31,954 bases of DNA. Origin: a virus. The stretch lies in the IMG/VR virus record IMGVR_UViG_3300003323_000316, positions 1 through 31,954 of that record; one strand, 5' to 3'. Below are positions 1-27,461 of this stretch, piece by piece; within the stretch, counting starts at the first letter, position 1, and the number at the start of each line of letters is the position of its first letter. The position numbers and the translations under genes are program-made. The notes under the pieces are model-generated. The model saw only the letters and a list, made by a program, of their open reading frames with translations. It had not been told where the DNA came from and made no database searches.

Positions 1-3000
1 CCGGTCGGCGGCGGCCTTCAGGGCGGCGTCCACCTCGGGCTTGTTCGGCGCGCCTTCGAGCTGGCGCAGGGTGATGTACGTTTCGGTCTTCGCGTGGTCG
101 TTCGCCAGGAGGGCGATGCGGTTGGAGAGCACCTTCTGGACCAGGTCGCGCTCGTGGTCGGGCAGGTCGCGGAACTCCTTCAGCCTGCCGTCGGGGACGA
201 CTGGTTTCCCCGAGTCGATGCCGAGGAGTGCCCGGACAAGCGCCTCCCTGGTGGTGTGCGACCAGGGGCTCTTCGGATCGAGGCCGGTGCTGATGGTGTG
301 CAGCCGCAGCGCCTTGACGGCTTCCGCGTGGATCGGGTGGGCGTTCTTCAGATCGTCGCTGGACGGCTGGAACAGCCGTTCCATGTCGAACTGGCTGAGG
401 CGAGGGGCGGGCTGGAAGTTGTGCTCGCCGGACGCCTGCTGGATGGCGTCGTAGATGCCGTTGTGCTTGCCGTAGTTGTCGTTCTCGACCATGTAGGCGC
501 GCTGGTGCAGCGGCAGGGACGGGTTGTCCTCCGCGATGCGCTGCGCCTCCCTCGCCACCTGGGCGTGCGGGTCGTCCTTGACGCCGGTGACAACGGGCGC
601 CTGGACGCGGGCCGACAGCCATTCACGCCGGAGTCCGGTGGCGTCGATCTTCCCGGCGCGGTAGTCGGCCTCGGCCTGCTTGAGCCGCTGCACGCCCGGG
701 TGGTGGCCGGTGAAGTCGACGACCGCCTTCTCCGCGGCCTTGTCGGCCGGGCGGGCGGCGTGCACCTCGATCAGGGCGTCGACGATCTTCCGCTTCTCGT
801 CGGGGGTGAGGCTGTCGTACTGGGCTTTCGTGATGCCGGTGAGTGCCTTGACGCGGTCGTCGAGGGGCATCTTCGCGTCGTCGGCGGCCTTGAGGGCGGC
901 GGCGACGGCCGGGTGCGGCCCGGTCGCGTTGGCGATGCCGGTCATGACGCGGTCGGCGTGGATCTCGCCGATCGACGCGGTGTGGTCGAGCTTGCCGGTC
1001 GGCTTCGTCGTGCCGACCAGGATCCGGCCGTAGGAGGCGGCCTTGAGCTTCTGCTCCTGCGTGGCCTGCGGGTGGGTAGCGATAAACGCCAGCCGGGAGG
1101 TGATGGCCTTCTTGTCGTCGTCGTCGAGCTTGCCCGCCTGCTCAGGGGACAGCCGGGCGACCGCCTTGAGGACGTCGTCGGGCTTGCCGCCGCCACGGGC
1201 CGCTTTGACGGCTTCGTTCATCGGGTCGCTGTAGCCCTTGGCGGCCGAGGTGTTGCCGGGGGCTGCGGACGGAGCGTGCGAAGATCCAAAACGATCGAGG
1301 AGATCGCGGGCGGCCTGCTGCTTCTTCGGGTCAAGGAACTTCGCTCGCGCGTCGGCCAAGTCGTCACGGATCTGCTTCTTCTCGCCGTCGGGGAGCGCGT
1401 CGAAGTCCGCCTTCGACAGCTTGGCGTAGGCGTCGAGGTGCGTCTTGGCCATCTGCGCCTTGGGCGCGGTCCGGTTCGCCACCGCCCTGGCGTGCTGGAT
1501 GTGAGCGGCAGTGCCGGGTGCGTTCGGGACGGCGGGCTTGATGCCGCCGGGGGTGGCCGTGGGTGCCGGGGCAGCCGACGGCTTGTTGGGCAAGGAGACG
1601 AGGATGCCGGACTGCTTCGGCAGGAACTGCAGCTCCTTGCCGTCCTTGTCGGTGATGTACCACTGCCCGGCACCCTTGGTGATGAGCTGGTGCTGGTGGC
1701 CGGGCCCGACGCCGACGTCGTGGAACGTCTTCTCCGCCCGGGTGCCCTTGCCGTAGGTGATGTCGACGGCGCCATGCTTCTTGATCAGGCCCTGCGCGGC
1801 GAGGGGTGTCACCCGGCTGGCGATCGACGGCGCAGAAGGAGTCGACGGGGCGGAGGGGGTGGACGGCGCCGCCGGAACGGTCGAAGGCGACGGCGCCGCA
1901 CCCTTGGTGATACCCAGCTTCTGCCGGATATCTGCCGCCGCCTGCTTCGCGGTCTGCGACTGCCCGGCGTCGATCGCGTCGAGGTCGTCGGCCAGCTTCT
2001 TCTTGCCCGCGTCGTCGAGCCGCTGGTAGTCGGCCTTGTCGAGCTTGCGGTATATAAATACCCGCGCCGACGGGGACAGCTGGGATCCCGGGTCCTGCGC
2101 CTTCTTCACCTGATCGACGACGTCCGGTCCGGCGGGCTTCGCCTTCGGCGCGGTCGGTGGCGCAGCGGGCAGGCCGGGCAGGCCGGTGCTCTTGCTGGCC
2201 TGCCCGAGGCTGACCTTGCCGGGGGTACTGGACGGCCCGTTGGTCGGGTTGAGAACCGGCACGACCTTGCCACTGGGCGTGGTGACGGTTCCGGCCGGAC
2301 GGAACGTCTGGGCGGGCTTGGTGCCCGGGGCGGGCAGCTTGGCGAGGAGCTCGTCGGCCTTCTTCTGCTGCGGGCCGAAGCCGCGCTGCTTGATCGCGGC
2401 CAGCTCGTCGCGGATCGTCTTCTTGTCGGCGTCGGAGAGGCTGTCCCACTCCTGCGGGGTGATCTTCGCGGCCTTGTCGAGCTTGTAGGTGTCGGTGACC
2501 TTCGGCTGCGTGATGACGAACGCGGGGCCGCGACCGGCGACCGACGGCTTCTTACCCTTCGGGCCGAGCGGCAGCGGAGGCGGGGTCTTCACCTGCACCC
2601 CGGCGGCCTGCGACACGGACTGGCCCGCCTTGTGGGCCTGCCCGCCTGCGAGGTCGGCCTTCTGGTTGACCTGGTGCAGAGGGACAGGGGTTGCGGCGTG
2701 CGCCGGGTGGCCCGGGGCGGGCTTCGGTTTGATCTCCTGCAGCAGGTGCCGGGGGATCGGCTTGCCCTGCGCCTTCAGGTCGTTGATGCGCTTGACGCGG
2801 CGTGCGTTGGCCTTACGTACGCGCTCACCTTCGAGCTGGTGCCAGGCGCCCGGGGACACGCTGTGCAGGGTGTGCTTCCAGCCCTTGCACGGGCCCGGGT
2901 GCAGCGGGTTGCGGCAGGCGACGAGGGCGTCGCAGGTGTCATGCGCGTCGTCGTCCTGGTTGGTCCAGGCCTCCATCGCGGAGAGGAGGCTGACGCCCGG

Positions 3001-3138
3001 CGGGAACGGGACCTGCTGCCCGGCGGCGATCAGGGAGGCGACGACGCTCTGCGCGAGCCTCGGCACGTCGAGCGGCTGACTGGAGGTCTTCCCGTTGGCG
3101 CGACCGCCGAGGGTGAGCAGGCTCCCGAGCGTCGTCAT
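1..3138 (-). CDS. Very large modular head-associated protein, partial (3' end beyond left edge)
   Basis: An open frame of 1,046 codons starts at ATG 3138 (AGGA eight bases upstream) and is still open at base 1. Residues about 66-90 hold a Cys/His motif (C, then HPGPCKGWKH) also found in the upstream MuF-like protein. The rest alternates Pro/Ala/Lys-rich linkers with a helical module of roughly 25-50 residues, pattern L-x-K-A-x-aromatic-x-x-L-x-D-x-x-K-K-x-I-x-D-x-L, seen near residues 216-250, 361-391, 568-616, 658-706, 759-808 and, more weakly, 981-1027. A beta-rich stretch lies near 461-530. Position after terminase, portal and MuF genes suggests a head or scaffold-linked protein, possibly injected; long multi-domain proteins of this kind in MuF loci can end in an enzymatic or toxin domain, which would lie outside the window. 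Function not recognised; the reading frame is certain. Confidence 0.85.
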   Translation of the reverse strand, partial: MTTLGSLLTLGGRANGKTSSQPLDVPRLAQSVVASLIAAGQQVPFPPGVSLLSAMEAWTNQDDDAHDTCDALVACRNPLHPGPCKGWKHTLHSVSPGAWHQLEGERVRKANARRVKRINDLKAQGKPIPRHLLQEIKPKPAPGHPAHAATPVPLHQVNQKADLAGGQAHKAGQSVSQAAGVQVKTPPPLPLGPKGKKPSVAGRGPAFVITQPKVTDTYKLDKAAKITPQEWDSLSDADKKTIRDELAAIKQRGFGPQQKKADELLAKLPAPGTKPAQTFRPAGTVTTPSGKVVPVLNPTNGPSSTPGKVSLGQASKSTGLPGLPAAPPTAPKAKPAGPDVVDQVKKAQDPGSQLSPSARVFIYRKLDKADYQRLDDAGKKKLADDLDAIDAGQSQTAKQAAADIRQKLGITKGAAPSPSTVPAAPSTPSAPSTPSAPSIASRVTPLAAQGLIKKHGAVDITYGKGTRAEKTFHDVGVGPGHQHQLITKGAGQWYITDKDGKELQFLPKQSGILVSLPNKPSAAPAPTATPGGIKPAVPNAPGTAAHIQHARAVANRTAPKAQMAKTHLDAYAKLSKADFDALPDGEKKQIRDDLADARAKFLDPKKQQAARDLLDRFGSSHAPSAAPGNTSAAKGYSDPMNEAVKAARGGGKPDDVLKAVARLSPEQAGKLDDDDKKAITSRLAFIATHPQATQEQKLKAASYGRILVGTTKPTGKLDHTASIGEIHADRVMTGIANATGPHPAVAAALKAADDAKMPLDDRVKALTGITKAQYDSLTPDEKRKIVDALIEVHAARPADKAAEKAVVDFTGHHPGVQRLKQAEADYRAGKIDATGLRREWLSARVQAPVVTGVKDDPHAQVAREAQRIAEDNPSLPLHQRAYMVENDNYGKHNGIYDAIQQASGEHNFQPAPRLSQFDMERLFQPSSDDLKNAHPIHAEAVKALRLHTISTGLDPKSPWSHTTREALVRALLGIDSGKPVVPDGRLKEFRDLPDHERDLVQKVLSNRIALLANDHAKTETYITLRQLEGAPNKPEVDAALKAAADR
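1283..1296 (-). repeat. Dispersed 14-bp motif, copy 1
   Basis: Minus strand GATCG-TTTT-GGATC, inside the large head gene (codes LDRFGSS); one mismatch to the consensus. Confidence 0.65.
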
Positions 3139-3142: not shown

Positions 3143-3310
3143 TCATCCTACCGATTGTTTTTGATCTTCAGCGGTCGACACGGGTGTCGTAGCGAGCGCC
3201 ATCTGCGCCTTCAGCCATCGGTCCTCCTCGTGCCAGCGGCGGGCGCGCAGCCACTCCTCGCGGGTCGTCGAACGGCCCTCCCTCACAGGCGCCCAGCACA
3301 CCTCGCACAT
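3143..3310 (-). CDS. Small CxxC protein, 55 aa, unknown function
   Basis: The ATG at 3310 overlaps the stop of the MuF-like gene as TGATG, and the gene fills the gap before the large head protein, so translational coupling is likely. The product starts MCEVC, then is rich in Trp and Arg (EEWLRARRWHEEDRW) and ends AEDQKQSVG. The single Cys pair could bind metal only as half a site or as a dimer. Its last codons are written across one copy of the dispersed 14-bp motif (3153-3166). Small genes like this between head genes are common in actinophages; I do not recognise a family. Confidence 0.7.
   Translation of the reverse strand: MCEVCWAPVREGRSTTREEWLRARRWHEEDRWLKAQMALATTPVSTAEDQKQSVG
3153..3166 (+). 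repeat. Dispersed 14-bp motif, copy 2
   Basis: GATTG-TTTT-TGATC, at the 3' end of the 55-residue gene, 15 bases before the start of the large head gene. Confidence 0.75.
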
Positions 3311-4722
3311 CAGCCGCGACCGGCCTCCTTCAGCGTCTTGTCCTCGGCCGCCTTACGCTGCTTCGCCGCCTGCGCGGCCTTCGCCTTGTGGTAGGCGGCC
3401 CGCTGCTTCGGGGTCATCTTCTTCAGTTTCGCCTGCTCCCGGCGCCGCTCCAGGATGCGCTGCGCGCGACGCTCCAGAGTGTCGTGCTTGGCCTGAGCGC
3501 GGCGCTTCGCCGTGGCGTCCATGCGGTCCTGCTCGGCGGTGTCCCGCTGGGCCTGCCGCTTCGCCCGGTCGTTGTCCGACGCGGCCTGCTTCAGGGTCTG
3601 CTGGTGCGGGCGCAGCGCCTTCTGGTAGTCGGCGACCGCCCGGCGGGCCATCGCGGCCAGCTTCGGATTCCGCTTCGCCTCGGCGGCGGCGACGGCCTGC
3701 GCCTGCGCGATGGCCGTGGACAGGCCCTTGACGGCCACCTGAGCCTTCTGGACGGGATCCTTGGCGGTGGCGTCCTGCACGCCGGGCTCGTAGCCGTTGC
3801 GGTGCTGGCCTTTGCAGAGGCCGGGCTTGTGGGTCTGCATGCAGAACTCACCGGTCTTGCATGCGGTCTGCATGAGGGTGAAGCCGGACGCGGTGATCCG
3901 GTGCTGGCGGTTGTCCATCCTCGTCGGCTCGTTTTTGATCTCCATCAGCTCGGTGCACCGGCAGTTGATCACCTGATCGGCAGGGGCGTCAGCAGCGTGC
4001 GGGTGCATCATCAGCACCGCGCCCGCAGGGCCGAGCCGGAACGGGTGCCCCCACGGCTGCACCTGGCCGTCGGCCTCCCGGTGGTCCGGGCGGGTGCGCT
4101 GGTCGTCGGTGGCCAGCCAGCGGTGCACGAACTCGGTGTCGTCGTCGGCGTCGGCCACCATCGAGAACGCGTCGTGCAGGCCACCGTTGTAGGCGCCCAC
4201 CACCTCGGTGCGGGCCACCGTGCGGGCGCGGTCCTTCCATCGCTGTATCCCGGCGTCGGCGAACAGCTCCTCCACCTGCGCGGTGACGTCGGGGATGCTG
4301 GCCCCGTTGGTGGTGCCGCTGTCGATGATGTGCTTGACGAGGCCGAACACCTCGTCGGGGACGCGCTGTAGCCGGTTGGCCCGGGTGGCGATCCAGTTCC
4401 GGACGAACGGCCGAGACTCGAACAGGGTGCCGTCGGCGAACAGGTCCCGGTAGGGGGCGGCGAGGACGTCGCGGGCGACCTGCTCGCTGTACTGCTCGGT
4501 GAGGGCGTGCCACTTCGGCGTCTGCGAGAAGACGGCCATCGGGTCGGGGACGAGGGCGAGCCGGGCCACGCCACCGGCGAAGATCGCGATGCGGACGGCG
4601 GCCAGCCATTCGAGCATCATGTCGAGGTACGCCTCATACAGGGGCGGCTCGTACTGGGCGAAGACCTCGACGGCGGCCTGCTTCTGGGCCTGCGCGGTGG
4701 GCAGGGTGGTCGGCTGGGTCAT
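3310..4722 (-). CDS. MuF-like minor head (head morphogenesis) protein with C-terminal coiled coil
   Basis: 470 residues. The N-terminal half is helical; residues about 160-255 carry the phage Mu gpF pattern: RARTVARTEVVGAYNGG, then W-x-x-TDDQRTRPDHREADG, and the terminal INCRC. MuF proteins bind the portal and take part in head assembly; some are injected or carry fused effector domains. After the MuF domain comes a Cys/His cluster near residues 282-307 (CKTGEFC, then HKPGLCKGQH), followed by about 160 residues of very basic, Ala/Lys/Gln/Arg-rich predicted coiled coil. The Cys/His motif recurs in the next large gene. Start ATG 4722 lies 34 bases after the portal stop with no strong ribosome binding site close by. 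A copy of the 14-bp motif sits in the gene (3927-3940) and another at the upstream junction. Confidence 0.85.
   Translation of the reverse strand: MTQPTTLPTAQAQKQAAVEVFAQYEPPLYEAYLDMMLEWLAAVRIAIFAGGVARLALVPDPMAVFSQTPKWHALTEQYSEQVARDVLAAPYRDLFADGTLFESRPFVRNWIATRANRLQRVPDEVFGLVKHIIDSGTTNGASIPDVTAQVEELFADAGIQRWKDRARTVARTEVVGAYNGGLHDAFSMVADADDDTEFVHRWLATDDQRTRPDHREADGQVQPWGHPFRLGPAGAVLMMHPHAADAPADQVINCRCTELMEIKNEPTRMDNRQHRITASGFTLMQTACKTGEFCMQTHKPGLCKGQHRNGYEPGVQDATAKDPVQKAQVAVKGLSTAIAQAQAVAAAEAKRNPKLAAMARRAVADYQKALRPHQQTLKQAASDNDRAKRQAQRDTAEQDRMDATAKRRAQAKHDTLERRAQRILERRREQAKLKKMTPKQRAAYHKAKAAQAAKQRKAAEDKTLKEAGRG
3927..3940 (+). repeat. Dispersed 14-bp motif, copy 3
   Basis: GCTCG-TTTT-TGATC, inside the MuF-like gene between the MuF domain and the Cys/His cluster. 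Confidence 0.75.
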
Positions 4723-4744: not shown

Positions 4745-4758
4745 GCTCGTTTTCGATC
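4745..4758 (+). repeat. Dispersed 14-bp motif, copy 4
   Basis: GCTCG-TTTT-CGATC, in the portal/MuF junction, overlapping the portal stop codon. Confidence 0.75.
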
Positions 4759-6736
4759 ATGGTGCAAGGTCTCGGCGGGCCTGCTGCAACGTCGCCTTGA
4801 GCAGGTCGGGGTCGTGCGGGACGCCCCGCGTGAGCAACTCCCGGCAGTAGCCGCCGAGGAGGTCTTCGAGGGCGTCGGCGTCCACGCCCAGCTCGGGCGC
4901 CTGCTCCCGCACGTGTGTCCACGCCCCGGCGAGCAGCGACGGCACCTTGGCCTGCTCGGCGATGACGCGGGTGTGCAGCAGGTGCTTGGGTACGGCGTGG
5001 CGGGCGCGTTGCGGGCCGGGCACGAGTCGGCCACCGGCCAGCTCCATCGCCCGGCGTACGGCGGCGTCAGCGGCGTAGAACAGCGGGTCCTGCATGGCCT
5101 TGGCCGACGCGGCGAGCTGGGACAGCTTCTGCCCCCGGATCGGCTTGACGTTCCCGGCTTCGGCGTCGGCGACCGACGGCAGGTTGGGTAGCGGCCGGTT
5201 GCCTGCGTCGGCCGGTTCAGTTCCGGCTTCGTCGTAGCCGGGGTCGCCTGGCATGAGGTCGCCTTCGGCGGGGGCTTCTGGCGGGGCCGGTTGTGCGGGG
5301 GGCTGGATCTTCGGCAGGCCGAGAATCTTCTGCACCTCGGGGTCGGCGGCGTATGCGGGCTGGGCCTGCAACAGCGACTTGACGATCTTGTAGACGCGTT
5401 CCTTATCGTCGGGGGCGTCGTCGTCGGTGAAGGCAGCGTTGTCGCGGGCTGACGCGTCGGAGATGAGGCCGTTCTCGACGAACTGCAGGGCCTGGTCGGA
5501 GCGGTTGGGCCGGACGGTGAGGGCGGCGATGTCGAACCAGAGGGTGTACTTCTCCGGGTCGGCGACGTTCGCGGCTTTGAGGGCGGGCTGGAAGTAGCCG
5601 ATATTGAGGGCGTCGGCGAGCTGGATGAGCAGCGGCTCAATGTGGATCTTGATCGAGGACTCTTCGATCTGCCACCCGGACCAGTGGTTGGTGCCGCCCA
5701 TGCCGGTGAGGACCTCGGGCGGGATGTCCAGGGACATCGCCATCCGCTTGACGGCCTCGGACCGCATGTCGATGATCTTGTCACTGATCTGCGACTCGAA
5801 CGTCAAGTGTTTGATCTTGTCCAGCGCCTCGGGCGCCGCCTGCAGGATGATCGGCACCAGCGCGGCGGCCGAGTCCCGCTGCTGCAGCGACGTCGCCATC
5901 GTGCGCTGCAGCAACTGCGTCAGGCCCTCGATGCCGGTCTGCTCGATCTCCCCGGGCACGCCGGGCGTCTGCCGGGGGAAGTCGATGCCGTCCGGCACGA
6001 GCAGCATGCCCGCCCCGGCAAGCCGGGAATCGAGCTCGGCGAACACCCGCTTGGTGGCCTGCTCCATCTCCCGCAGCACCGGAAGGATCGCCCGGGTGGT
6101 CGAGTCGGCGGCGTCGTGGCGGCGCGGGTGCGGGTTCCACACCCGGATGAGGAGGTCCTTCTGCGGGTCGAGCTTGTAGGTGCCGCCTCCGTGCGTGATC
6201 GACCGCTTGATCATGATGTCGTCGCCCCGGCGGAACACCTCCGACGACGAGCACACGTACCACTTGTCCTGGTCGGGTGTGCCGTCCTGGCCGGTGTTCT
6301 GATAGCCCTCGGCGACGATGAACACGTCCCCGGCGACCATCATGTTGATGCCCATCAGGCGCTGCGCCTGCGCCTTCGCGGCCGGGGTGCCGAACATCGT
6401 CTCGGCGATGGTCTTCACCCGGGCGTCGGTGGCCTCGTCGCCGACGGTGCCATCGTTGCTGATCTGGGCGGCGTACATGCGGCAGCGGCTGATCGCGTTG
6501 CCAATCCAGTTGACGACGAACCGCAGCTCGCCGCAGATGTCGTAGTGGCGCCACGCCTCCCACTGCCAGCGGTGGTCACCGAGCTTGAACATCTGCCACG
6601 AGGTGGCGTCGCCGAGGTTGATCGGCACGGCGGCGCCGATGAGGGAGGCCCGCCGCTCGGCGGCGCGCAGGTCGGCCTCGGTTCCCCGGTCCGGCAGCGT
6701 CCCGGCGGGCACGACCTTACGCTTGATCAGCCCCAC
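4757..6736 (-). CDS. Portal protein
   Basis: 659 residues, the usual size for actinophage portals of the SPP1-like fold. The protein forms the dodecameric ring at the head vertex through which terminase pumps DNA and to which the tail joins. Recognisable portions are the N-terminal WQMFKLGDHRWQWEAWRHY region, where the clip and wing begin, and residues about 311-379 (MRSEAVKRMAMSLDIPPEVL, then GGTNHWSGWQIEE), typical of the crown/stem helices of this family. Residues about 469-519 are a Pro/Ala-rich linker before a helical C-terminus. The start is taken as GTG 6736, five bases after the preceding stop, with AAGGGA upstream; longer upstream frames lack a binding site. Order terminase-portal-MuF supports the call. 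Confidence 0.9.
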   Translation of the reverse strand: MGLIKRKVVPAGTLPDRGTEADLRAAERRASLIGAAVPINLGDATSWQMFKLGDHRWQWEAWRHYDICGELRFVVNWIGNAISRCRMYAAQISNDGTVGDEATDARVKTIAETMFGTPAAKAQAQRLMGINMMVAGDVFIVAEGYQNTGQDGTPDQDKWYVCSSSEVFRRGDDIMIKRSITHGGGTYKLDPQKDLLIRVWNPHPRRHDAADSTTRAILPVLREMEQATKRVFAELDSRLAGAGMLLVPDGIDFPRQTPGVPGEIEQTGIEGLTQLLQRTMATSLQQRDSAAALVPIILQAAPEALDKIKHLTFESQISDKIIDMRSEAVKRMAMSLDIPPEVLTGMGGTNHWSGWQIEESSIKIHIEPLLIQLADALNIGYFQPALKAANVADPEKYTLWFDIAALTVRPNRSDQALQFVENGLISDASARDNAAFTDDDAPDDKERVYKIVKSLLQAQPAYAADPEVQKILGLPKIQPPAQPAPPEAPAEGDLMPGDPGYDEAGTEPADAGNRPLPNLPSVADAEAGNVKPIRGQKLSQLAASAKAMQDPLFYAADAAVRRAMELAGGRLVPGPQRARHAVPKHLLHTRVIAEQAKVPSLLAGAWTHVREQAPELGVDADALEDLLGGYCRELLTRGVPHDPDLLKATLQQARRDLAP

Positions 6737-7084: not shown

Positions 7085-7648
7085 TCAGAGCCAGTACCGG
7101 CCTTCGCGGTAGACGGTCTGGGCCAGGTCGAACGTGTCCCGGTCGAACAGGACCAGGGTGACCCGCTGCACGTGCCGGTAGCGGCGGGAGCTGATCGCCT
7201 TCAGGGCCTGCTCGATCGCGTCCTTGACGGGCCAGCCGTACACGCCGGAGGAGATCAGCGGGAAGGCGACCGTCCGCGCGTGGAGCTGGTCGGCGACCTT
7301 CAGCGACGAGGTGTAGGCCGACCGGAGCTGCGCCGACCGGTCTTCCTTGGTGGAGTAGACCGGGCCGACGGTGTGCACGACGTAGCGGGCGGGCAGGCGC
7401 CCGCCCCGGGTGGGAACGGCTTCGCCGACCGGCAGGCCGTCGGGGTAGAGGGTGTCGCGGATGGCCCGGCACTGGGCGAGGATGGCCGGTCCGCCCGCCG
7501 CGTGGATCGCGCCGTCCACGCCGCCTCCGCCGAGCAGGGACGACTTCGCGGCGTTGACGATGACGTCGCTGCGGCGCTTGGTGATGTCGCCGACTTCGAG
7601 GTCGATGACGGGGGCCTGCTTGCGGGAGAACAGGTTGAACAGGTTCAT
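7085..7648 (-). CDS. Macrodomain protein (ADP-ribose binding/hydrolase family) with altered active-site Asn
   Basis: 187 residues covering one macrodomain: DVIVNAAKSSLLGGGGVDG at residues 28-46, H49, and ISSGVYGWP at 132-140. Family members bind ADP-ribose and many remove it from proteins or hydrolyse O-acetyl-ADP-ribose. In the YmdB/MacroD branch the motif is NAAN...GGGGVDGxIH, where the second Asn and the Asp ten residues later are catalytic; here the second Asn is Lys35 (codon AAG) while Asp45 and His49 are kept. The protein may therefore bind more than hydrolyse. It has its own promoter and a strong AAGGAGG, after a terminator. A role against host NAD or ADP-ribose-based defence, or in reversing ADP-ribosylation, is a guess. 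Confidence 0.9.
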   Translation of the reverse strand: MNLFNLFSRKQAPVIDLEVGDITKRRSDVIVNAAKSSLLGGGGVDGAIHAAGGPAILAQCRAIRDTLYPDGLPVGEAVPTRGGRLPARYVVHTVGPVYSTKEDRSAQLRSAYTSSLKVADQLHARTVAFPLISSGVYGWPVKDAIEQALKAISSRRYRHVQRVTLVLFDRDTFDLAQTVYREGRYWL

Positions 7649-13570: not shown

Positions 13571-14989
13571 TTAGTACGGGGAGGTCGTCGGCATAAAGGC
13601 GTCGAGCGGCGGGGCGGCCACCCGGACCAGCTTGCCCTCACGGCCCATCAGGAACAGCCCGGCCTGCACTAGGGCGTCGATGCGGTCCGGTGATGCGGCG
13701 GCGCCGGGCTCCCACGTGCACTGCTGGTCCTCCAGCTCGACGAACGTGCCGACGTGGTGCACGCGGCCCTGCTCGTAGCGGGCGGCAACCGGCTCGGCGC
13801 GCAGCTTCTTGCCCGCCAGGCTGGTGACCTCCTTGATCGGAGGCGGCCCGGGAGGGAATAGGCCCTCGGCCTGCATGGCCTTGTAGGCGTCGGACATGAC
13901 CTGGATGACCCACTTCTTGCCCATGTTCGTCTCGACGACCAGCCAGGTGGCATCCCACGTCCGGAACGTCTCCCAGGCGAGCCGGGCTGCGGGGGTGCCG
14001 ACGATCCGCTTGGTGACGTCGGCAAGCACGTAGTCATCCTCGTCGTAGCCGCGAGCTACCACGAGGATGCCGGTTTCGTCGTTGGAGCCGGAGGCGCCCG
14101 GGTCGACGGAGACGACGGTCTGCTTCAGTTCTGGCAGGTCAGCGGCCTTGATGCGATTGTTTTCGATCATGGGCCGGTTCCACAGCGCGCCCTCGATCTC
14201 TTCGAGGAGATGCCCGTACAGCTCCTGCAGCCCGGCGCGGGTGCCCTCGTACAGCTTCTTGAGCTTCTCGACGACGATCTGCGAGAGGTTCATGACGTTG
14301 TCGAAGATCGAGCCGGTGGTGATCTTCACAGTGCCGTCGTCGGTGTGCTTCCACTCGATGATCAGCTTGATCGGCTTCGGGGTGGTGGTGACCACCGCGC
14401 GCGGGTGGTCGTCGATCAGCGGGGCGCGCAGCGACGGCAGGATGCCCTCGTACCAGGCGTCGTAGGTGTAGCGCCACTTGGCGAGCTCGTCGAGCCAGGC
14501 CCCGGCGGCGTTGTAGCCACGGCCGACGTCGGCGTTGTCAGCGCCCTCGAAGTAGATGACCTGGCCGCTGGCGAATTCGATCATGAGCTTGGGCGACTTG
14601 GCGTAGTGGAAGTCGCGGTCCTTCTTCATGCCCATCCGGCGCAGCACCGATAGCAGGCCCGAGGTGCCCTCGATACATGCCGTACGGCAATCGTTGAGGG
14701 TCTCGGCAACCACAAGCCACTCGGTGCGGTTGCCGAAGGCGTCCACCGGGTGGCGGAAGACGCGGTCAAGAAGATCCTCGGCGCCGGTGCGGGTTTTGCC
14801 CCAGCCTCGGCCGGACAGGATCAGCCAGATCAGCCAGTCGCCGGGCGGCCGGAATTGCTCGGGGCGGCCGACCCACCACCAGGCGCCCTTGAGGATGTCG
14901 TCGAGGGTCTCGCGGGACTGCTCGGCCAGCCATTGCTTGCGCAGCTCGGGTGGGAGCAGGGCGAGCTTCTGGGCAGCGGACAGGCTCAT
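13571..14989 (-). CDS. Terminase large subunit
   Basis: 472 residues from ATG 14989. The N-terminal ATPase shows Walker A SGRGWGKT (residues 59-66), Walker B AWLDE (D168, E169) and the coupling TTTP at 201-204; the C-terminal RNase H-like nuclease shows VVSVDPG (D296), VVETN (E353) and a final acidic site near SPDRIDAL (D435/D438). It powers DNA translocation into the prohead and cuts the concatemer. Two copies of the dispersed 14-bp motif belong to this gene: one inside (14155) and one touching the start codon (14990-15003), so the Shine-Dalgarno (AGAGGA) is unusually far, about 12 bases. A longer upstream frame to 15049 has no binding site. Confidence 0.95.
   Translation of the reverse strand: MSLSAAQKLALLPPELRKQWLAEQSRETLDDILKGAWWWVGRPEQFRPPGDWLIWLILSGRGWGKTRTGAEDLLDRVFRHPVDAFGNRTEWLVVAETLNDCRTACIEGTSGLLSVLRRMGMKKDRDFHYAKSPKLMIEFASGQVIYFEGADNADVGRGYNAAGAWLDELAKWRYTYDAWYEGILPSLRAPLIDDHPRAVVTTTPKPIKLIIEWKHTDDGTVKITTGSIFDNVMNLSQIVVEKLKKLYEGTRAGLQELYGHLLEEIEGALWNRPMIENNRIKAADLPELKQTVVSVDPGASGSNDETGILVVARGYDEDDYVLADVTKRIVGTPAARLAWETFRTWDATWLVVETNMGKKWVIQVMSDAYKAMQAEGLFPPGPPPIKEVTSLAGKKLRAEPVAARYEQGRVHHVGTFVELEDQQCTWEPGAAASPDRIDALVQAGLFLMGREGKLVRVAAPPLDAFMPTTSPY
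14155..14168 (+). repeat. Dispersed 14-bp motif, copy 6
   Basis: GATTG-TTTT-CGATC, mid-gene in the large terminase (codes MIENNR), between ATPase and nuclease domains. Confidence 0.75.
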
Positions 14990-15003
14990 GATCGAAAACG
15001 ATC
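14990..15003 (-). repeat. Dispersed 14-bp motif, copy 7
   Basis: Perfect palindrome GATCG-TTTT-CGATC on the minus strand, immediately before the terminase ATG. Confidence 0.8.
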
Positions 15004-16404: not shown

Positions 16405-16752
16405 TCATCTCCTCCGGTTGTTTTCGATCATGCGTCTGCGGGGGCAGCGGGTGTAGCGGCAGGGGTCGGCGCGGAAGATGTGCTCGTACTGGTCGGCGTC
16501 GGCCTCACGGTAGAACGCCCACTGCTTGGCGCCGCCCGGGTGGCCGCAGTGCGACCGGACCCACCACGAGAAGCTGTCGTCGCGGGGGGCGTTGATGTCC
16601 GGCGGCCATTGGCCGTCCGGCATGCGCCGCTTCATCCAGACGACGCCGGACGCGTCGGCGCGATCGCCTCGGGCGAGCCACACCCCGACAGGGGCAGCCC
16701 CCGTCCCCGGCTGAAACGGGGACGGGGGCTGCTGGCGGCGTCGGGTCGTCAC
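16405..16752 (-). CDS. Cys/His-containing unknown protein, 115 aa
   Basis: GTG 16752 overlaps the preceding stop as GTGA. The N-terminus is Arg/Pro/Gln-rich; the centre (ADASGVVWMKRRMPDGQWPP) and WWVRSHCGHPGGAKQWAFYR lead to RADPCRYTRCPRRR at the end. C and H residues (SHCGH, C-x4-C) could form a zinc site. The last codons read MIENNRRR, written across a copy of the 14-bp motif (16416-16429). Role unknown; it is part of the pre-terminase operon. Confidence 0.7.
   Translation of the reverse strand: MTTRRRQQPPSPFQPGTGAAPVGVWLARGDRADASGVVWMKRRMPDGQWPPDINAPRDDSFSWWVRSHCGHPGGAKQWAFYREADADQYEHIFRADPCRYTRCPRRRMIENNRRR
16416..16429 (+). repeat. Dispersed 14-bp motif, copy 8
   Basis: GGTTG-TTTT-CGATC, at the 3' end of the 16405-16752 gene and beside the next Shine-Dalgarno. 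Confidence 0.75.
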
Positions 16753-17543
16753 TGCCACTCGGGGAGCTTGGTGGAGCGGCGGCGCTCGTTGTACACCTGC
16801 GTGACCGTGCGGGCGACCTGCGTGGAGAGGTTCCCGGCGCGGGAGAACTTCTGGCCCCGGGCGAAGCCGAGCAGGGCGTCCGGGCCGCCCGGGTAGGCGG
16901 ACAGTCGCTTGCTCAGGTCGGTCAGGTCGACGTCTTCGCCGTACCGGTTGAGCATCCGGCCGACGCCCTCGATCAGGGAGCCGTTGACGGCGGCCGGGAT
17001 GTGGCCGAACGCGTTGGTGAGCACGGCGATGGCGGCAGATGCGGCGAACGGTCCGCGCTCGGCGAGGGCGTAGACGCGTTCCAGGCTGCGCACGGCGCTG
17101 ATCTTGCCCTTCCCGGCTGCCGTCGACACGGACCAGCCGTTGTCGGCCAGCACCTTCGCCAGGTAGAGGGCATCCTTGCGGCCCTCGACGCAGGCCACGA
17201 GGAACTGATCGATCGGGCCCACCTTCTCGGTGGTGTTGAGCAGGCGGAACAGGGCGGCTTCCTGCGCGAGGTTGAGGCCGTGGTATTCGTCGGTGCGGAT
17301 CGGCCCGTCGTACTTGGCGCGCAGGGCGGCGCCGTGCCGGTGCTGGCCGTCCACGATGTGGATGACCCCGTTGTCGCGGTACGAGGTGGTGATCACACCG
17401 AGGGCTTCTGGGTGGAAGTCGGCGGCGATCTTCTCGACGCGGCTCGCCTTCATGGCCCGCTGCACTGCCGGGTCGACGGTCAGCTCGACCGCCTTACGCT
17501 CAACGAGGTAGTGCGTCGCCCCGCCGATGGTCGGACTGGTCAT
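16749..17543 (-). CDS. ParB/sulfiredoxin-fold protein (DUF6551-like), 264 aa
   Basis: ATG 17543 overlaps the upstream stop as ATGA. Residues about 10-110 fit the ParB N-terminal fold: LTVDPAVQRAMKASRVEKIA, then a key VDGQHRHGAAL motif at 64-74 that corresponds to the ParB G-E-R-R box in nuclease/CTPase-like relatives. The C-terminal part is helical (KISAVRSLERVYALAERGPF). Phage proteins of this kind sit upstream of terminase and may bind DNA, hydrolyse nucleotide or nick DNA; activity cannot be judged from sequence. It is the second of two adjacent ParB-like genes. Confidence 0.75.
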   Translation of the reverse strand: MTSPTIGGATHYLVERKAVELTVDPAVQRAMKASRVEKIAADFHPEALGVITTSYRDNGVIHIVDGQHRHGAALRAKYDGPIRTDEYHGLNLAQEAALFRLLNTTEKVGPIDQFLVACVEGRKDALYLAKVLADNGWSVSTAAGKGKISAVRSLERVYALAERGPFAASAAIAVLTNAFGHIPAAVNGSLIEGVGRMLNRYGEDVDLTDLSKRLSAYPGGPDALLGFARGQKFSRAGNLSTQVARTVTQVYNERRRSTKLPEWQ

Positions 17544-18448
17544 TCGGACTCCTTCTTCATCTTCTTGATGATCTGCTCCAGGTTGCGGCGGGACGCCGCC
17601 AACCTGGCGTGAACGGGGGCGACGTGGTCTCGGGGGAGGTCGGGGTGGGGCGGCCCCAACTCAACGAGACCGGCGATCAGGCCCTCCAACTGCGGCAGTA
17701 CGCGAGCCCAGGTGGCGAGCTGGCGGGCGGCGGGCGCCGACTCCTCCGGCGGTTCGATCTTGCGCTGCTTCGCGGGTGCACTCTTGCGGCCGACGAACAG
17801 CTCCCGGTAGCCGCGCCACAGGCTGGACGTGCCGTCGTCGATGGCGGCCAGCGCCGCCCGGGCGGCCTGACGGCGGTCCTCGGGCTGGGCGGGGGAGCTG
17901 GCGAGCATGTAGATGGCCCACAGGCGGCTGGCTGTGGTGCCGGACATTCCGAAGGCGGGGGCCAGGGTGTCGAGCACGTAGTCGGTGGAGTAGCCGGAGC
18001 GGGCGGGCTTACGTTTCCCGGCCATCGTCGCCTTGCGCAGCTCGATCCCCCGGCGCTTCGCGGTCTCGAACCGGCGCAGGGCGGCCGGTGCGTCGAGCTC
18101 ACGTAGCAGCTCCCACAGGCGGCCGATCTCGGCGGTGCGCATCGGGAGGGCCAGGTGGTCGTCTTCGCTGTCGGCGAGCAGCCGTTTGGCGGCGTCCTCG
18201 ATGGTGTCGACGAACACGGCGCGAATGTGCCGGTGCTGGCTGCCTCGGATGCCGGAGGCGCCCGCCATCAGGAAGTGCGCACGCAGGCGGCGGGAGCCGG
18301 AGATCAGGGTGCCGTCTTTCCAGACGGTGATCGGGTGGCGCAGGCCCTCGGCCGCGATGCTCTCGCCGAGGTCACTGAGGATGCCGTAGGCCTCCCGGTA
18401 GGGCGGGACGCGGACGGACTCGATGCTGATGGTGACCTCGTCACTCAC
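17540..18448 (-). CDS. ParB-like nuclease-domain protein, 302 aa
   Basis: GTG 18448 overlaps the upstream stop as GTGA. The N-terminal domain follows the ParB pattern: SVRVPPYREAYGILSDLGES, IAAEGLRHPITVWKDGTLIS, and GSRRLRA at 51-57 in place of GERRxxA. The middle is helical (EIGRLWELLRELDAPAALRR) with an HTH-like YVLDTLAPAFGMSGTTASRL stretch, which could recognise DNA, and the C-terminus is a basic coiled coil (ARLAASRRNLEQIIKKMKKE). ParB-like proteins bind specific palindromes and slide or spread; the repeated 14-bp palindrome in this window is one candidate target, a speculation. Confidence 0.8.
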   Translation of the reverse strand: MSDEVTISIESVRVPPYREAYGILSDLGESIAAEGLRHPITVWKDGTLISGSRRLRAHFLMAGASGIRGSQHRHIRAVFVDTIEDAAKRLLADSEDDHLALPMRTAEIGRLWELLRELDAPAALRRFETAKRRGIELRKATMAGKRKPARSGYSTDYVLDTLAPAFGMSGTTASRLWAIYMLASSPAQPEDRRQAARAALAAIDDGTSSLWRGYRELFVGRKSAPAKQRKIEPPEESAPAARQLATWARVLPQLEGLIAGLVELGPPHPDLPRDHVAPVHARLAASRRNLEQIIKKMKKESE

Positions 18449-18941: not shown

Positions 18942-19325
18942 ATGGGAACCAGCTATAAGAGCCTCTACCAGGAGGCGCAGAAGGAGATCGAGAAGCTCAC
19001 CAACGAAGTCAGGCACCTGCGCAGTGCCCTCGACATGAGCCCCGACGAGAGCCTGCGGGAATTGGAACGCACCCGCGAGATCGTTGACCTGGCGGGCATC
19101 GCCGCTCACATGCACGTCGAGCGCTTCACCCCGCAGCAGTGGCGGCAGCGCTACAAGGACGAGTTCCCGCCGGTGGACTTTCCGGCCATCAAGGAGCCGC
19201 TCTGGTACGCCTCGACGATCCGGGATGGATTTGCCAAGCCGACGCGGCGGCTGTGGTGCGAGACACCGACGTCGCTGTACGCGGCCGGATGTATCGTGCC
19301 TCACCCGATGCGCATCGCAGCCTAG
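18942..19325 (+). CDS. Coiled-coil protein, 127 aa, first gene of plus-strand block
   Basis: ATG 18942 has GAGGA six bases upstream; ATG 18906 in the same frame lacks one. Residues 1-55 form a coiled coil (YKSLYQEAQKEIEKLTNEVR, then ESLRELERTREIVDLAG); the C-terminal half is mixed (PQQWRQRYKDEFPPVDFPAI, LWCETPTSLYAAGC). No family recognised. Divergent from the packaging operon, it is probably an early gene; the 86-base intergenic region contains only a weak TAGGCT -10 candidate for this direction. Confidence 0.75.
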   Translation: MGTSYKSLYQEAQKEIEKLTNEVRHLRSALDMSPDESLRELERTREIVDLAGIAAHMHVERFTPQQWRQRYKDEFPPVDFPAIKEPLWYASTIRDGFAKPTRRLWCETPTSLYAAGCIVPHPMRIAA

Positions 19326-19334
19326 AAACGAGCA

Positions 19335-20960: not shown

Positions 20961-20988
20961 CGTGCCTCGTGTATGCTGTGCGTAGACA
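20950..20988 (+). promoter_or_regulatory. Promoter with shared 19-nt element for the ERF gene
   Basis: TTGACG (20950-20955), 16 bases, TATGCT (20972-20977), and the element TGTATGCTGTGCGTAGACA at 20970-20988. The -35 lies in the last codons of the preceding gene. AGGAGG follows before ATG 21012. Confidence 0.75.
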
Positions 20989-21011
20989 GTCACCTCAGGA
21001 GGTACAGCAGC

Positions 21012-21917
21012 ATGGCGGACCACAAGAGCATGAACGCGGCGCTCGCGGCGTTCCAAGCCGAAGTGCCGAAGATGAGCAAAGACGAACACGCCAAGGTCAC
21101 CGGCAAGAGCAAGGAGACCGGCGAGCGCTACGACCGCTCGTACAACTACGCGGGCCTGGACCAGTTCGTCGAGATCGCCGAACCGATCCTCGGCAAGCAC
21201 GGCCTGTCCCTCTCGTCGGTCAGTGAGTTCGACGACAAAGGCCGGTTCGTCCTAGTGGTCACCCTGTGCCACGAGAGCGGCGAGGAGAGGTCCGGGGTGT
21301 GGCCGCTGCCCGACCCGTACGGCCGAGGCGTTGGCCCGCAGGACATCGGGTCCGCGATGACCTACGGTCGCCGCTACCTCGGCTGGGCGCTCACCGGCAC
21401 CTTCCCCGGCGGGATCGACGACGACGGCGCGAAGGCGCAGCAGCGGGCCGACCGGGAGAGCTGGGACAGCGCGCGGCCCCGCGAGGAGCGGCCGGTGTCA
21501 GCGCCGCCCGCCACGCCGAAGACCTCGTGGACCGATGAAGAGGTCCTCAAGCTGGTCACGCCGATGCCGGTGGCACAGGTCGAGAAGGCGGTCGCCGTCT
21601 ATGACTGGATGGCGGCCCGGAACCTGCACAAGCGGGTCGTGGAGATGGACTACAAGGGCAGCCCGGTCAAGGTGACCGCCACCGACCTGATCGCGGGGCG
21701 TATCGCCGACGAGGCCCTCGTGCCCTACGCCACCGTGAACGGCATCAAGGGACTCCAGGCTCTGGCCAACGACCGGGGCCTGATGAAGGTGCAGGTGTCC
21801 GAGTCGGAGACCCTCGCCGAGGCCCTGTACAGCGCGCAGGAGCTGGCGGCGCACGCCGAGGCTGACCAGGGCACGCAGGACGGCAGCCCGACGGCCGCGC
21901 CCGGACAGGGCGACTGA
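21012..21917 (+). CDS. ERF-family single-strand DNA annealing protein
   Basis: 301 residues, ATG 21012 preceded by AGGAGG. The ERF core is clear: YNYAGLDQFVEIAEPILGKH (44-63), the strand VTLCHESGE, and QDIGSAMTYGRRYLGWALTG (110-129). ERF proteins (P22 Erf type) form rings on single-stranded DNA and promote annealing for recombination and circularisation. The C-terminal half (TDEEVLKLVTPMPVAQVEKA, GIKGLQALANDRGLMKVQVS) is variable in the family. Own promoter with a strong -35. An exonuclease partner is not obvious nearby. Confidence 0.9.
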   Translation: MADHKSMNAALAAFQAEVPKMSKDEHAKVTGKSKETGERYDRSYNYAGLDQFVEIAEPILGKHGLSLSSVSEFDDKGRFVLVVTLCHESGEERSGVWPLPDPYGRGVGPQDIGSAMTYGRRYLGWALTGTFPGGIDDDGAKAQQRADRESWDSARPREERPVSAPPATPKTSWTDEEVLKLVTPMPVAQVEKAVAVYDWMAARNLHKRVVEMDYKGSPVKVTATDLIAGRIADEALVPYATVNGIKGLQALANDRGLMKVQVSESETLAEALYSAQELAAHAEADQGTQDGSPTAAPGQGD

Positions 21918-21934
21918 TACGCCGCGAGACACGG

Positions 21935-22135
21935 GTGCACAACCTCCTCATCGAGGCCGGGTTCGTGCTGCACCGCAACCGCAAGCATCCGATCTACCAG
22001 TGCCCCTGCGGGCACGCCCAGCTCACCGGATGCTGCTCCGGCTACCGGGGCAAGGGTGACACCAACCTCCTCTCCCAGATGACCCGCACCCTGCGGGTCT
22101 GCAACGAGAACATGAAGGCGAAGGTAAACGCATGA
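21935..22135 (+). CDS. Small Cys-rich protein, HicA-like fold possible, 66 aa
   Basis: GTG 21935, 17 bases after the ERF stop. The sequence LLIEAGFVLHRNRKHPIYQC, then PCGHAQLTGCC and LLSQMTRTLRVC, recalls the HicA layout (hydrophobic helix, GF, a K/H pair followed by a strand, and a late helix with LL-x-Q) seen in dsRNA-binding-like folds; here extra cysteines (CPCGH...CC) suggest a metal site. HicA proteins are mRNA interferases, but phage homologues are usually of unknown role. Tentative. The stop overlaps the next start as ATGA. Confidence 0.55.
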   Translation: MHNLLIEAGFVLHRNRKHPIYQCPCGHAQLTGCCSGYRGKGDTNLLSQMTRTLRVCNENMKAKVNA

Positions 22136-22665
22136 CCGACGAGACGACGGGGGCCGCCACAACCGGCGGCCCCTCGGGGGGCGGGCCGACCGACGCTGAG
22201 GTACTGGTCGCCCTGGACCTGTACACGAAGGCCCTCAGTCCGACCAACATCGCGTTGCGCGCCCGCTGCACCGAGGACTTCGCGAAGCGGCACGTGGAGA
22301 AGGTCGGCGCCTACCTGCCCGACGGCACGAAGATCGGGGCGGTGGCCTACCGCAAGGGCGCGAAGACCGCCCGGATCACCGACGAGCAGGCCGCCCTGGC
22401 GTGGGCGATCAAGGAGCACCCCGAGCAGGTCATGCAGGCCGTCCGGCCCGCGTTCCTGTCGATGCTCCTCGACGTCGCCAAGAAGGAGGTCGAGGTCGGC
22501 GGCCACGGCTTCGACCCCGCCACCGGGCAGGAGCTCGACTGGATCGAGGTCGTCGAAGGCGCCCCCGGCGTCACGGTCACCAGCACCCCCGAGGGCAAGG
22601 CGCGCATGGCCGCCCTGGCGAACGGCTTCGGCCGCATGATCGGGGGCACCGGTGGCGAAGGCTGA
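22132..22665 (+). CDS. Unknown protein, 177 aa
   Basis: ATG 22132 overlaps the previous stop. A Gly/Thr-rich start (GAATTGGPSGGGPT) is followed by a helical domain (EVLVALDLYTKALSPTNIAL, CTEDFAKRHVEKVGAYLPDG) and a second one (DEQAALAWAIKEHPEQVMQA, VRPAFLSMLLDVAKKEVEVG). The C-terminus (TPEGKARMAALANGFGRMI) is also helical. Position after ERF suggests a recombination or replication accessory role; sequence alone does not show one. Well-supported as coding by codon use. Confidence 0.7.
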   Translation: MTDETTGAATTGGPSGGGPTDAEVLVALDLYTKALSPTNIALRARCTEDFAKRHVEKVGAYLPDGTKIGAVAYRKGAKTARITDEQAALAWAIKEHPEQVMQAVRPAFLSMLLDVAKKEVEVGGHGFDPATGQELDWIEVVEGAPGVTVTSTPEGKARMAALANGFGRMIGGTGGEG

Positions 22666-23128
22666 GGCGACCGTACACGTCGAGGTTGATATGAGCGCCG
22701 AGCTGCGCAAGGCGTTCGCGGACCTCGGCAAAGGCCTGGCCGCCGCCATGGCTGCCCTCCCGAAAGCCGCGCCGCCGCAGCTCCCGAGAATGGCTGAACT
22801 CCCGAGGCACTACCCGTCGGCTCGCTGCACGGTGTACGACTGCCGTATCCCGGAGCACTACGTCGGTGGCGTCGTGCCCGGTGAAGTGCGACCGCGTGTG
22901 CACGCCATGCGTACCGCCTTGCAGGCCGTCCTGGATGTCCTGGACGGCCGGATCGAGCGAGCGCAGGACAACCACCACGACAGCTATCACCCGAACGAGC
23001 CCCAGGGCCAGGAGTGTTGGCGCCGATTCTCGCCCGGCGACATCCGCAACATGATCAACGACGCCGCCCGCGCGGTGGGCCTCACTGAGTTCCCGCCGCC
23101 TAACGTCCGCAAGGAGGACGCCCTGTGA
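22652..23128 (+). CDS. Unknown protein, 158 aa
   Basis: GTG 22652 lies inside the preceding gene's end (14-base overlap). The N-terminus is strand then helix (AEATVHVEVDMSAELRKAFA, DLGKGLAAAMAALPKAAPPQ); two Cys (ARCTVYDCRIPEHY) and a His/Asp/Asn-rich turn (QDNHHDSYHPNEPQGQECW) could hold a metal. The C-terminal part, FSPGDIRNMINDAARAVGL, is helical. No catalytic pattern is certain. It may be part of the replication/recombination block. Confidence 0.65.
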   Translation: MAKAEATVHVEVDMSAELRKAFADLGKGLAAAMAALPKAAPPQLPRMAELPRHYPSARCTVYDCRIPEHYVGGVVPGEVRPRVHAMRTALQAVLDVLDGRIERAQDNHHDSYHPNEPQGQECWRRFSPGDIRNMINDAARAVGLTEFPPPNVRKEDAL

Positions 23129-23415
23129 ACACGTCCCGCATCGCGAAGATTGGCGCCGTCGGCGCGCTCGCCCTGGTCGCGCTGGTCGGCTGCGGCAACC
23201 ACTCCAGCGACAACACGCCGACCGTGCAGCAGCCGACTGGCCCGGCCACGCTGATCAAGTTCCCGTACGGCTTCCGTAACGTCACCGCCAAGTGCGACGG
23301 CCCGAACATGGTCTACAGCGGTTCGGCCGGGTCGGACGATAGCCTGCCGCCGTCGATCGCTGTCGTTCCCAACGACCCGCGCTGCCCGGGGCACCTGAAC
23401 TCCTCGGCCAACTGA
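23125..23415 (+). CDS. Lipoprotein, 96 aa
   Basis: GTG 23125 overlaps the preceding stop as GTGA. The N-terminus is a signal peptide (MNTSRIAKIGAVGALALVAL) with lipobox ALVGC, so C23 is the predicted lipidated residue. The mature part (NVTAKCDGPNMVYSGSAGSD, then AVVPNDPRC) follows a pattern I associate with small actinophage lipoproteins: GFRNVxxxC, NxVY, VvpNDPxC, probably with one disulfide. It would sit on the outer face of the host membrane. Function unknown; adjacent to the Ltp-like lipoprotein. Confidence 0.8.
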   Translation: MNTSRIAKIGAVGALALVALVGCGNHSSDNTPTVQQPTGPATLIKFPYGFRNVTAKCDGPNMVYSGSAGSDDSLPPSIAVVPNDPRCPGHLNSSAN

Positions 23416-23648
23416 TGTTGTCCCGGTCGGTCCGTCGCCGCCTCGCGCGGTGGCGGACCTTGCCGCCGGAGCCGACCGGAAGCGCGGTGCGCGTGTCACT
23501 GCAGTTGCGGGAGGCCAACGGCATCACTTCATCGTTTTTGATCTTGCCGGGCGAGGAGACATCCGCCGTCCTCTCCGGCTTCGTCGACAAGGCAGGCGGA
23601 TTCGAACGCATCCAGGTCCCGGTCAACATCCGGGCCACCATCGTCTGA
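23415..23648 (+). CDS. Small beta-rich protein, 77 aa
   Basis: ATG 23415 overlaps the lipoprotein stop as TGATG. An Arg-rich start (MLSRSVRRRLARWRTLPPEP) is followed by strands (GSAVRVSLQLREANGITSSF, LILPGEETSAVLSGFVDKAG, FERIQVPVNIRATIV). It has no recognisable motif. One copy of the dispersed 14-bp motif (23530-23543) lies in it, in the codons for SSFLILPG. Probably coupled to the lipoproteins on both sides. Confidence 0.6.
   Translation: MLSRSVRRRLARWRTLPPEPTGSAVRVSLQLREANGITSSFLILPGEETSAVLSGFVDKAGGFERIQVPVNIRATIV
23530..23543 (+). repeat. Dispersed 14-bp motif, copy 9
   Basis: CATCG-TTTT-TGATC, in the small gene between the two lipoprotein genes. Confidence 0.75.
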
Positions 23649-25060: not shown

Positions 25061-25467
25061 GCTTTGAGACCGCCAAAGCCCTCGCGCAGGCCCGTTCCTA
25101 CGGGCGGTGCGAGGGCTGCGGCCTTTCCGGGCTGCCTCTCGACCCGCACCACCGGATGACGCGTGGCTCCGGCGGTGTGCACGGCGATGCCGAGACGGTG
25201 TCCAACGACGTGCGCAACCTGCTGATGCTGTGCCGGGGCTGCCATGACTCGACCCTCGCCGACGCGCAGGGCTGCATCCGTATCGGTTGGGTGATCGAGC
25301 GCCGTGAGGGAGTGGACCCGCGCGAGGTACCGGCCAAGCTGAACACGGTCAACGGGTCGGGCTGGTGGTTTCTTACCGAGGACGGCGGCTACCAGTGGGA
25401 TCCGATCATGAACATGATCGACTCGCCGGAGTGGGTCAAGATCGAAAACGATACGGAGAAGAGCTGA
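25057..25467 (+). CDS. HNH endonuclease
   Basis: 136 residues, ATG 25057 overlapping the preceding stop. The HNH fold is clear: C18-x2-C21, PLDPHHRMTRG with H31/H32, NDVRNLLMLCRGCH (N54, C59, C62, H63). The two Cys pairs hold structural zinc, and the His-Asn-His set is the nicking/cleavage site. In many phages a small HNH protein works with terminase at packaging; here the gene is far from terminase and on the other strand, so a free-standing nuclease or a recombination role is possible. A copy of the 14-bp motif lies at its 3' end (KIENDTEKS). Confidence 0.85.
   Translation: MSFETAKALAQARSYGRCEGCGLSGLPLDPHHRMTRGSGGVHGDAETVSNDVRNLLMLCRGCHDSTLADAQGCIRIGWVIERREGVDPREVPAKLNTVNGSGWWFLTEDGGYQWDPIMNMIDSPEWVKIENDTEKS
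25440..25453 (-). repeat. Dispersed 14-bp motif, copy 10
   Basis: Minus strand TATCG-TTTT-CGATC, in the last codons of the HNH gene, 14 bases before the next start. Confidence 0.75.
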
Positions 25468-27106: not shown

Positions 27107-27461
27107 GCTTCTCCTCCTGGATGGCCTTGTCTGCCTTACCGTACGCCGGGCGGCGGGTGCGCTCACTCCGGTGCCGGAACAGCTGAAGATCAAAAATGAT
27201 CCACGAACGCCACCCCAGCACCAGTGGCAGGCCGATGGCCAGCGAACCGGCCCGCAGGTAGGCGAACCAGGTCGTGTCGCGGAACAGGTGCGCGATGACG
27301 TTCAGGTCGAGGATCCAGGCCAGCACGAGCATGAACCAGAAGACGTGCCAGCCGCCCCGGGACGTCCAGAAACGGGCCAGGGTGGCGAAGCCGATGAAGC
27401 CGATGGTGGCGATGACGGCCGAAACCCACAGGCCGATGGTGCCGAGAAGTTGGGGGGTCAC
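27096..27461 (-). CDS. Three-helix membrane protein of the lysis cassette, 121 aa
   Basis: GTG 27461 overlaps the preceding stop as GTGA and the 3' end overlaps the endolysin start by 11 bases. Hydrophobic stretches LLGTIGLWVSAVIATIGFIG, GWHVFWFMLVLAWILDLNVI and FAYLRAGSLAIGLPLVLGWR form three membrane helices; the tail is basic and polar (RHRSERTRRPAYGKADKAIQ). It may be the holin, an antiholin or a pore regulator. A 14-bp motif copy (27188-27201) codes for WIIFDLQ. Confidence 0.7.
   Translation of the reverse strand: MTPQLLGTIGLWVSAVIATIGFIGFATLARFWTSRGGWHVFWFMLVLAWILDLNVIAHLFRDTTWFAYLRAGSLAIGLPLVLGWRSWIIFDLQLFRHRSERTRRPAYGKADKAIQEEKHGA
27188..27201 (-). repeat. Dispersed 14-bp motif, copy 11
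   Basis: Perfect palindrome GATCA-TTTT-TGATC on the minus strand, in the membrane-protein gene before the endolysin. Confidence 0.8.

Follow-up and report, generated by a model that had tools for sequence, protein, structure and literature searches.

Dispersed asymmetric repeats under DNA-level selection in a family of uncultured soil phages: probable landing sites for a phage regulator

We analysed the virus record IMGVR_UViG_3300003323_000316 from an uncultured soil bacteriophage (31,954 bases, hereafter the window) and the short AT-rich repeat that is dispersed along it and along the genomes of its relatives. The repeats are probably landing sites for a phage regulator, many of them at fixed codons inside structural genes. 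For the more specific assignment the chances are about even: the repeats would be stoperator-like or KorB/Noc-like sites for a phage-encoded DNA-binding protein and would mainly serve the late region. The favoured binder is a ParB-fold protein, ParB1, and the alternative is a small protein named c8.

The eleven copies listed in a first-pass annotation of the window were all recovered at the same coordinates. Ten of them contain the exact core TTTTYGATC, as against 0.08 expected, with at most one per dinucleotide shuffle, and thus the set is real and not a product of chance. The remaining copy (1283..1296, minus strand, GATCGTTTTGGATC) indeed has a variant core, reading TTTTGGATC, and lies within a large late-region gene. 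A weight matrix built from the family copies added two weaker candidates. One of them, AAGTGTTTGATCTTGT at 5803..5820 (plus strand, score 19.2), is in the portal gene and is kept in about 11 relatives; the other is at 477 (score 14.2).

A portal search of viral contigs yielded 48 loci. One, at 99% identity, belongs to the 56.8-kb record G001, where the equivalent of the site at 1283 is found at 14295; most others are at 69-80%, and two distant loci are at 38-41%. In each of the 17 near-complete relatives (50.9-59.2 kb, portal identity 69-99%) the exact motif occurs 14-19 times, and the reversed control pattern is absent from all of them; the enrichment noticed in the window therefore extends outside it. 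At a matrix score of 16 or more there are 16-23 sites per near-complete genome, whereas no Markov shuffle scored above 13. The density is about 20 copies per genome, or one per ~2.9 kb. Within its composition class of 9-mers, TTTTCGATC ranks first in 965 kb of family sequence: it has 192 copies, where the class averages 2.6. An exact-pattern scan of viral contigs produced mostly single chance copies in unrelated records, the exceptions being family members, G079 and G080 among them. No copy of the motif is present in the distant records G033 and G034. Among cultured phages, Actinoplanes phage phiAsp2 comes closest (portal identity 38%); the matrix scan found no strong copy in it.

Alignment of about 300 copies gave the 16-mer consensus RTCGTTTTYGATCWTG. 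Its right part, TTTTYGATCWTG, is near-invariant and the left arm is half-conserved, so the right half is the better kept one, as had been remarked earlier. The initial description of the element as a palindrome does not hold for the family: perfect 5-bp dyads occur at only 16 of 290 sites, and the element is better called asymmetric. Two perfect dyads do exist in the window, GATCG-TTTT-CGATC at 14990..15003 (minus strand, adjoining the ATG of the terminase large subunit gene) and GATCA-TTTT-TGATC at 27188..27201 (minus strand). One possibility is that the element acts in the transcripts, as a hairpin or a translation signal, since its ideal form could pair as a 5-bp stem with a 4-nt loop and some sites are located ahead of ribosome-binding sites. 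However, even with G-U allowed, only 27 of the 290 sites keep all five pairs as AAAA-strand RNA, and 52 as TTTT-strand RNA. Besides, both strands are used, and there are no compensating changes, the right arm being nearly invariant. We regard an RNA-level element as very improbable. GATC methylation, also suggested at first, was rejected: G001 has 420 GATC, about 20 of them within the motif, and GATC is over-represented everywhere, with ~95% of its occurrences outside the motif.

The selection acts on DNA. Genes were called by our own script and clustered by reciprocal best hits, so that single gene boundaries may be off. Among the coding sites antisense to their gene, 202 of 205 are in one frame, mostly reading [KM]-I-[EK]-N. 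This removes the original argument, which relied on translation in different frames, and makes it necessary to consider selection for the peptides KIEN or MIEN in phage proteins. However, the choice of codons is extreme. The glutamate of IEN is encoded by GAA in 130 of 137 cases, as against 21% of glutamate codons genome-wide, and the lysine of IKN by AAA in 24 of 31 cases, as against 6% of lysine codons. At codon 275 of the terminase large subunit the site is present in 18 of 18 genomes and ATC-GAA is fixed, while the adjacent codons vary synonymously; the copy of the window in this gene (14155..14168, plus strand) covers the MIENN codons, and both the site and GAA are kept in 18 of 18 genomes. 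Comparable islands of invariant codons were observed in three further genes of the structural region. At codon 328 of the tape-measure gene the motif is in the gene sense, and the rare codons GTT, GAT and CTT are retained (GTT-TTY-GAT-CTT). Finally, the sites are also found in non-coding DNA and, in the sense orientation, encode FDL or FSI. The probability of peptide-level selection is close to negligible, and the earlier conclusion that DNA and not protein is selected stands on this codon evidence. The shared frame is presumably the one best suited to GC-rich codon usage.

Other intragenic copies of the window are positionally conserved as well. The site at 3927..3940 (plus strand) falls on the EIKNEP codons of a head-morphogenesis gene, and 13 of 18 genomes have a site in this gene. 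The site at 25440..25453 (minus strand) covers the C-terminal KIEND codons of an HNH gene, upstream of the following start, and 11 relatives have a site in the gene. The perfect dyad at 27188 covers FDL codons of a short endolysin-region gene and is kept in 12 of the 12 genomes having this gene.

The distribution of the sites along the genome is not uniform. Near start or stop codons there are 125 sites versus 57 expected, and in intergenic regions 99 versus 48. The association with gene ends and starts noticed in the window was confirmed: by our gene calls, the sites at 4745, 9354, 14990, 16416, 23530 and 25440 are all at most 60 bp from a start codon. The site at 4745..4758 (plus strand) is between the portal stop codon and the following ribosome-binding site; those at 9354..9367 and 16416..16429 (both plus strand) are at gene ends upstream of the following Shine-Dalgarno (SD) box, immediately so in the former case; and that at 23530..23543 (plus strand) is in a predicted short plus-strand open reading frame. 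In general, the sites preceding start codons lie upstream of the SD box. Most sites, on the other hand, are inside genes, many of them at conserved mid-gene positions, and there are about 100 lineage-specific sites, which means that sites have been gained and lost. Of 332 sites (positions mapped from the terminase start), only 3 are in the region carrying Rep, Erf and ParB1, which makes up 10% of the genome; in the window, positions 16430-23529 contain no strong site. At distinct coding loci, 57 sites are directed against the gene and 16 with it, a bias that codon fit would explain.

One site overlaps a likely promoter. The site at 3153..3166 (plus strand), 15 bp upstream of the ATG at 3138, adjoins the sequence GG-TAGGAT-GACGGT-ATG, a leaderless-type promoter of the minus strand. 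The motif is at about -16 to -32, and the -10 element TAGGAT (3145..3150, minus strand) is 2 bp downstream of it and 6 nt ahead of the ATG. This layout is common to several relatives, whereas others have no site there. Could the repeats be activator boxes or elements of middle or late phage promoters? This locus, where in several genomes the motif ends 2-3 bp before the -10 box of a leaderless gene, agrees with such a role. However, TANNNT at the two relevant offsets is found at only 7 and 8 of the 99 intergenic sites, and no such offset is enriched at the sites inside genes. Further, no sigma factor was found in 19 records, and both orientations occur at non-coding loci. Promoter elements are thus an improbable explanation.

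As the first-pass annotation had it, two ParB-like proteins are encoded in the window. ParB1 (17540..18448, minus strand) is a 302-aa ParB-fold protein with a predicted helix-turn-helix (HTH) and is a candidate binder. Its profile matches the N-domains of ParB at E 1.7e-7; its structural model (mean predicted local distance difference test, pLDDT, 84) matches the structures of ParB and Noc, with modest template modelling scores. The alternative candidate, c8 (18942..19325, plus strand, 127 aa), is divergent from ParB1 and is the first gene of the early operon on the opposite strand. It has a very conserved, near-invariant core that by eye resembles a small winged HTH; this putative domain was not confirmed by family libraries, and the predicted structure, of low confidence (mean pLDDT 62), gave no fold match. 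With either protein as the query, unrestricted searches of viral contigs matched site-bearing family members, apart from one marginal c8 match of 41 residues in a 127-kb record. The site-less G034 has divergent homologues of both candidates (E 6e-7 for ParB1 and 4e-4 for c8). The second ParB-like protein, ParB2 (16749..17543, minus strand, DUF6551/DGQHR), is also present in G034 and hence is a less likely binder. A search of cultured phages and plasmids with ParB1 had no match.

The mechanism that we propose is the following. A sequence-specific DNA-binding protein encoded by the family would occupy sites along the mainly late region; the early genes would be left free, the sites being kept out of the region of replication, recombination and ParB genes. 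At the 3153 locus the protein would act as at an operator, blocking the single promoter that the site overlaps, and elsewhere the sites could be stoperator-like roadblocks or KorB/Noc-like loading points. Late gene expression would thereby be held back or timed. The ParB fold and the predicted HTH make ParB1 the favoured candidate for this role, with c8 as the alternative. In its boldest form, the proposal would have a viral ParB-family protein turned into a genome-wide regulator of late expression through ~20 asymmetric sites, a viral counterpart of KorB and Noc that has no ParA and no detected lysogeny genes; this we consider possible but rather doubtful.

The fold of ParB1, which matches Noc as well as ParB, is also consistent with a role in DNA organisation instead of transcription. 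A Noc- or ParB-like protein could load on replicating DNA to organise it, protect it and make it ready for packaging. Most sites are away from promoters, and those at 14155 and 14990 form an inverted pair in the terminase gene, separated by about 835 bp; this pair is widely conserved in the family and would be part of such a system. However, the excess at gene boundaries and the avoidance of the replication region suit regulation better, and the ParB genes have no adjacent sites, unlike the situation with parS. We consider this explanation unlikely.

Several observations weigh against the proposed regulator. No integrase, tyrosine or serine (PF00589, PF00239), and no ParA (PF13614) were found in 18 records; HTH_3 proteins are present only in three family members, and there is no conserved HTH_3 repressor. 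At distinct non-coding loci there is no significant orientation bias (20 versus 13, p=0.30), unlike L5 stoperators. The divergent control region of ParB1 and c8 has no site nearby, and so no autoregulation is seen. By our own reading, the GxRR motif is kept in ParB1 and the NxxR arginine of ParB is not, which makes cytidine triphosphate clamping uncertain. Finally, the co-occurrence of the sites with ParB1 and c8 is confined to one lineage and cannot single out the binder.

Another possible explanation is true stoperators of a temperate phage, where an immunity repressor bound to all sites would silence the prophage, as in cluster A mycobacteriophages. Such sites would likewise be asymmetric, dispersed and similar in number; here the sites upstream of ribosome-binding sites, the one over a promoter, and the antisense-to-gene excess in raw counts are in agreement with this. 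However, integrase, ParA and a conserved HTH_3 repressor are absent from the 18-19 genomes; portal and ParB1 scans of 84,980 species genomes found no relatives, and hence no link to a prophage or a host; the early control region is site-free; and no significant orientation bias is seen at non-coding loci. True stoperators are therefore quite improbable, and a temperate, immunity-type life cycle is unlikely.

The analogues named in the first-pass annotation fit in part. L5 (cluster A) stoperators are asymmetric and oriented with transcription (PMC9283540). The family here resembles cluster A in having a short asymmetric site with about 20 or more copies per genome, found both at a promoter and scattered elsewhere. 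It differs in that no immunity repressor, integrase or site at an early promoter was found, and the orientation bias is seen in coding DNA only. The start-associated sequences of Cluster K contain the SD box and are located at 3-7 bp from the start codon (PMC3203893). They too are short conserved repeats in many copies, but the sites considered here have no SD box and are not at this distance; most are intragenic, and the start-proximal ones are upstream of the SD box, so this comparison fails. The parS analogy holds as far as a ParB-fold protein with an HTH is encoded, and breaks down at the absence of ParA and the non-palindromic site.

The sites of Noc are multiple, are bound by a ParB-fold protein, and serve DNA organisation. 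KorB of plasmid RK2 is a ParB-family repressor with operators both near and far from its promoters (PMC11790492). Judging by sequence, the present system would resemble these two in its multiple sites and candidate ParB-fold binder, while KorB and Noc sites are symmetric and have other sequences.

Dispersed repeats are also known in other actinophages. Cluster O mycobacteriophages (Corndog, Catdawg) have more than 30 dispersed 17-bp repeats of unknown function, a ParB-like protein and no integrase; the repeat is a perfect dyad with 7-bp halves on either side of 3 bp, TGTTCGG-NNN-CCGAACA, and is denser in the non-structural arm (PMC4351075). Common features are the dispersed copies (about a third of them intragenic in Cluster O), the T-tract centre, the ParB-like protein and the lack of integrase. 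In contrast, the repeat described here is asymmetric, mostly located in the late region and near-absent from early genes. A BLASTP comparison of Catdawg gp90 with ParB1 gave no similarity.

Microbacterium phages of clusters EC, EG and EI have 5-12 repeats in short intergenic regions; the EC repeat is an asymmetric 18-bp one, the EG repeat is GATCAACC-NN-GGTTGATC, and EI phages have two adjacent ParB-like genes and Erf (PMC7302621). Like the family here, these are actinophages that lack a repressor and an integrase and whose dispersed repeats are found ahead of start codons. Moreover, the EG half site shares TTGATC with our element, and paired ParB-like genes and Erf are common to EI and the family. 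The differences are the low copy number, the restriction to short intergenic regions, and the sequences. The features typical of repeats in lytic actinophages are all observed here: a short conserved motif in many copies, the absence of integrase and repressor, and no clear link to promoters. OneinaGillian (cluster EG) has the repeats and no annotated ParB, and thus ParB does not generally accompany such repeats. The present case differs from all these systems in the sequence, in how strongly the sites are represented within late structural genes and in the exclusion from the early region.

Other repeats were observed in more distant genomes. In phiAsp2 (NC_005885) there are 17 copies of TGACACTTCA inside a TTGACACTTCACAGTCAA dyad. 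Some ten of them have a TGTAATGT-like -10 box downstream, and the others are dispersed and lack such a box; by sequence, this looks like a set of operators plus stoperator-like sites. G034 has another dyad, TTGAC-N6-GTCAA (e.g. at 10279, 18447, 47162, 48350, 48775 and 49576; 0-1 in shuffles), which overlaps promoter-like -35 boxes and precedes at least seven genes at a distance of about 55-75 bp. As both phages carry their own repeats at promoter-like sites, sets of operator-like repeats may be a recurrent trait of the wider group.

Several neighbouring genes of the window should be mentioned. Two tRNA-Arg genes located in the variable region are predicted by ARAGORN on the minus strand at 11089-11173 and 11413-11486, with anticodons CCG and GCG; the Rfam calls differ (11414-11486 and 11572-11637). 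The gene at 7085-7648 (minus strand) encodes a protein that by eye is macro-domain-like (GDITKRRSDVIVNAA). Relatives also encode proteins that by eye resemble DUF1810 and ADP-ribosylglycohydrolase, and all these perhaps form a nicotinamide adenine dinucleotide (NAD)/ADP-ribose module. A 66-aa protein, HicA-toxin-like by eye, is encoded at 21935-22135 (plus strand), flanked by the Erf gene and by a conserved uncharacterised one.

Dispersed short repeats without a known function recur in lytic actinophages, as in clusters O, EC, EG and EI. The comparison of ~20 genomes demonstrates strong selection at the DNA level even within conserved capsid, tail and packaging genes. It also maps the regions where the sites are kept and those from which they are excluded, and narrows the candidate binders to two proteins. 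If ParB1 is the binder, this would suggest a role for the ParB-like proteins that are common, and so far unexplained, in phages without ParA.

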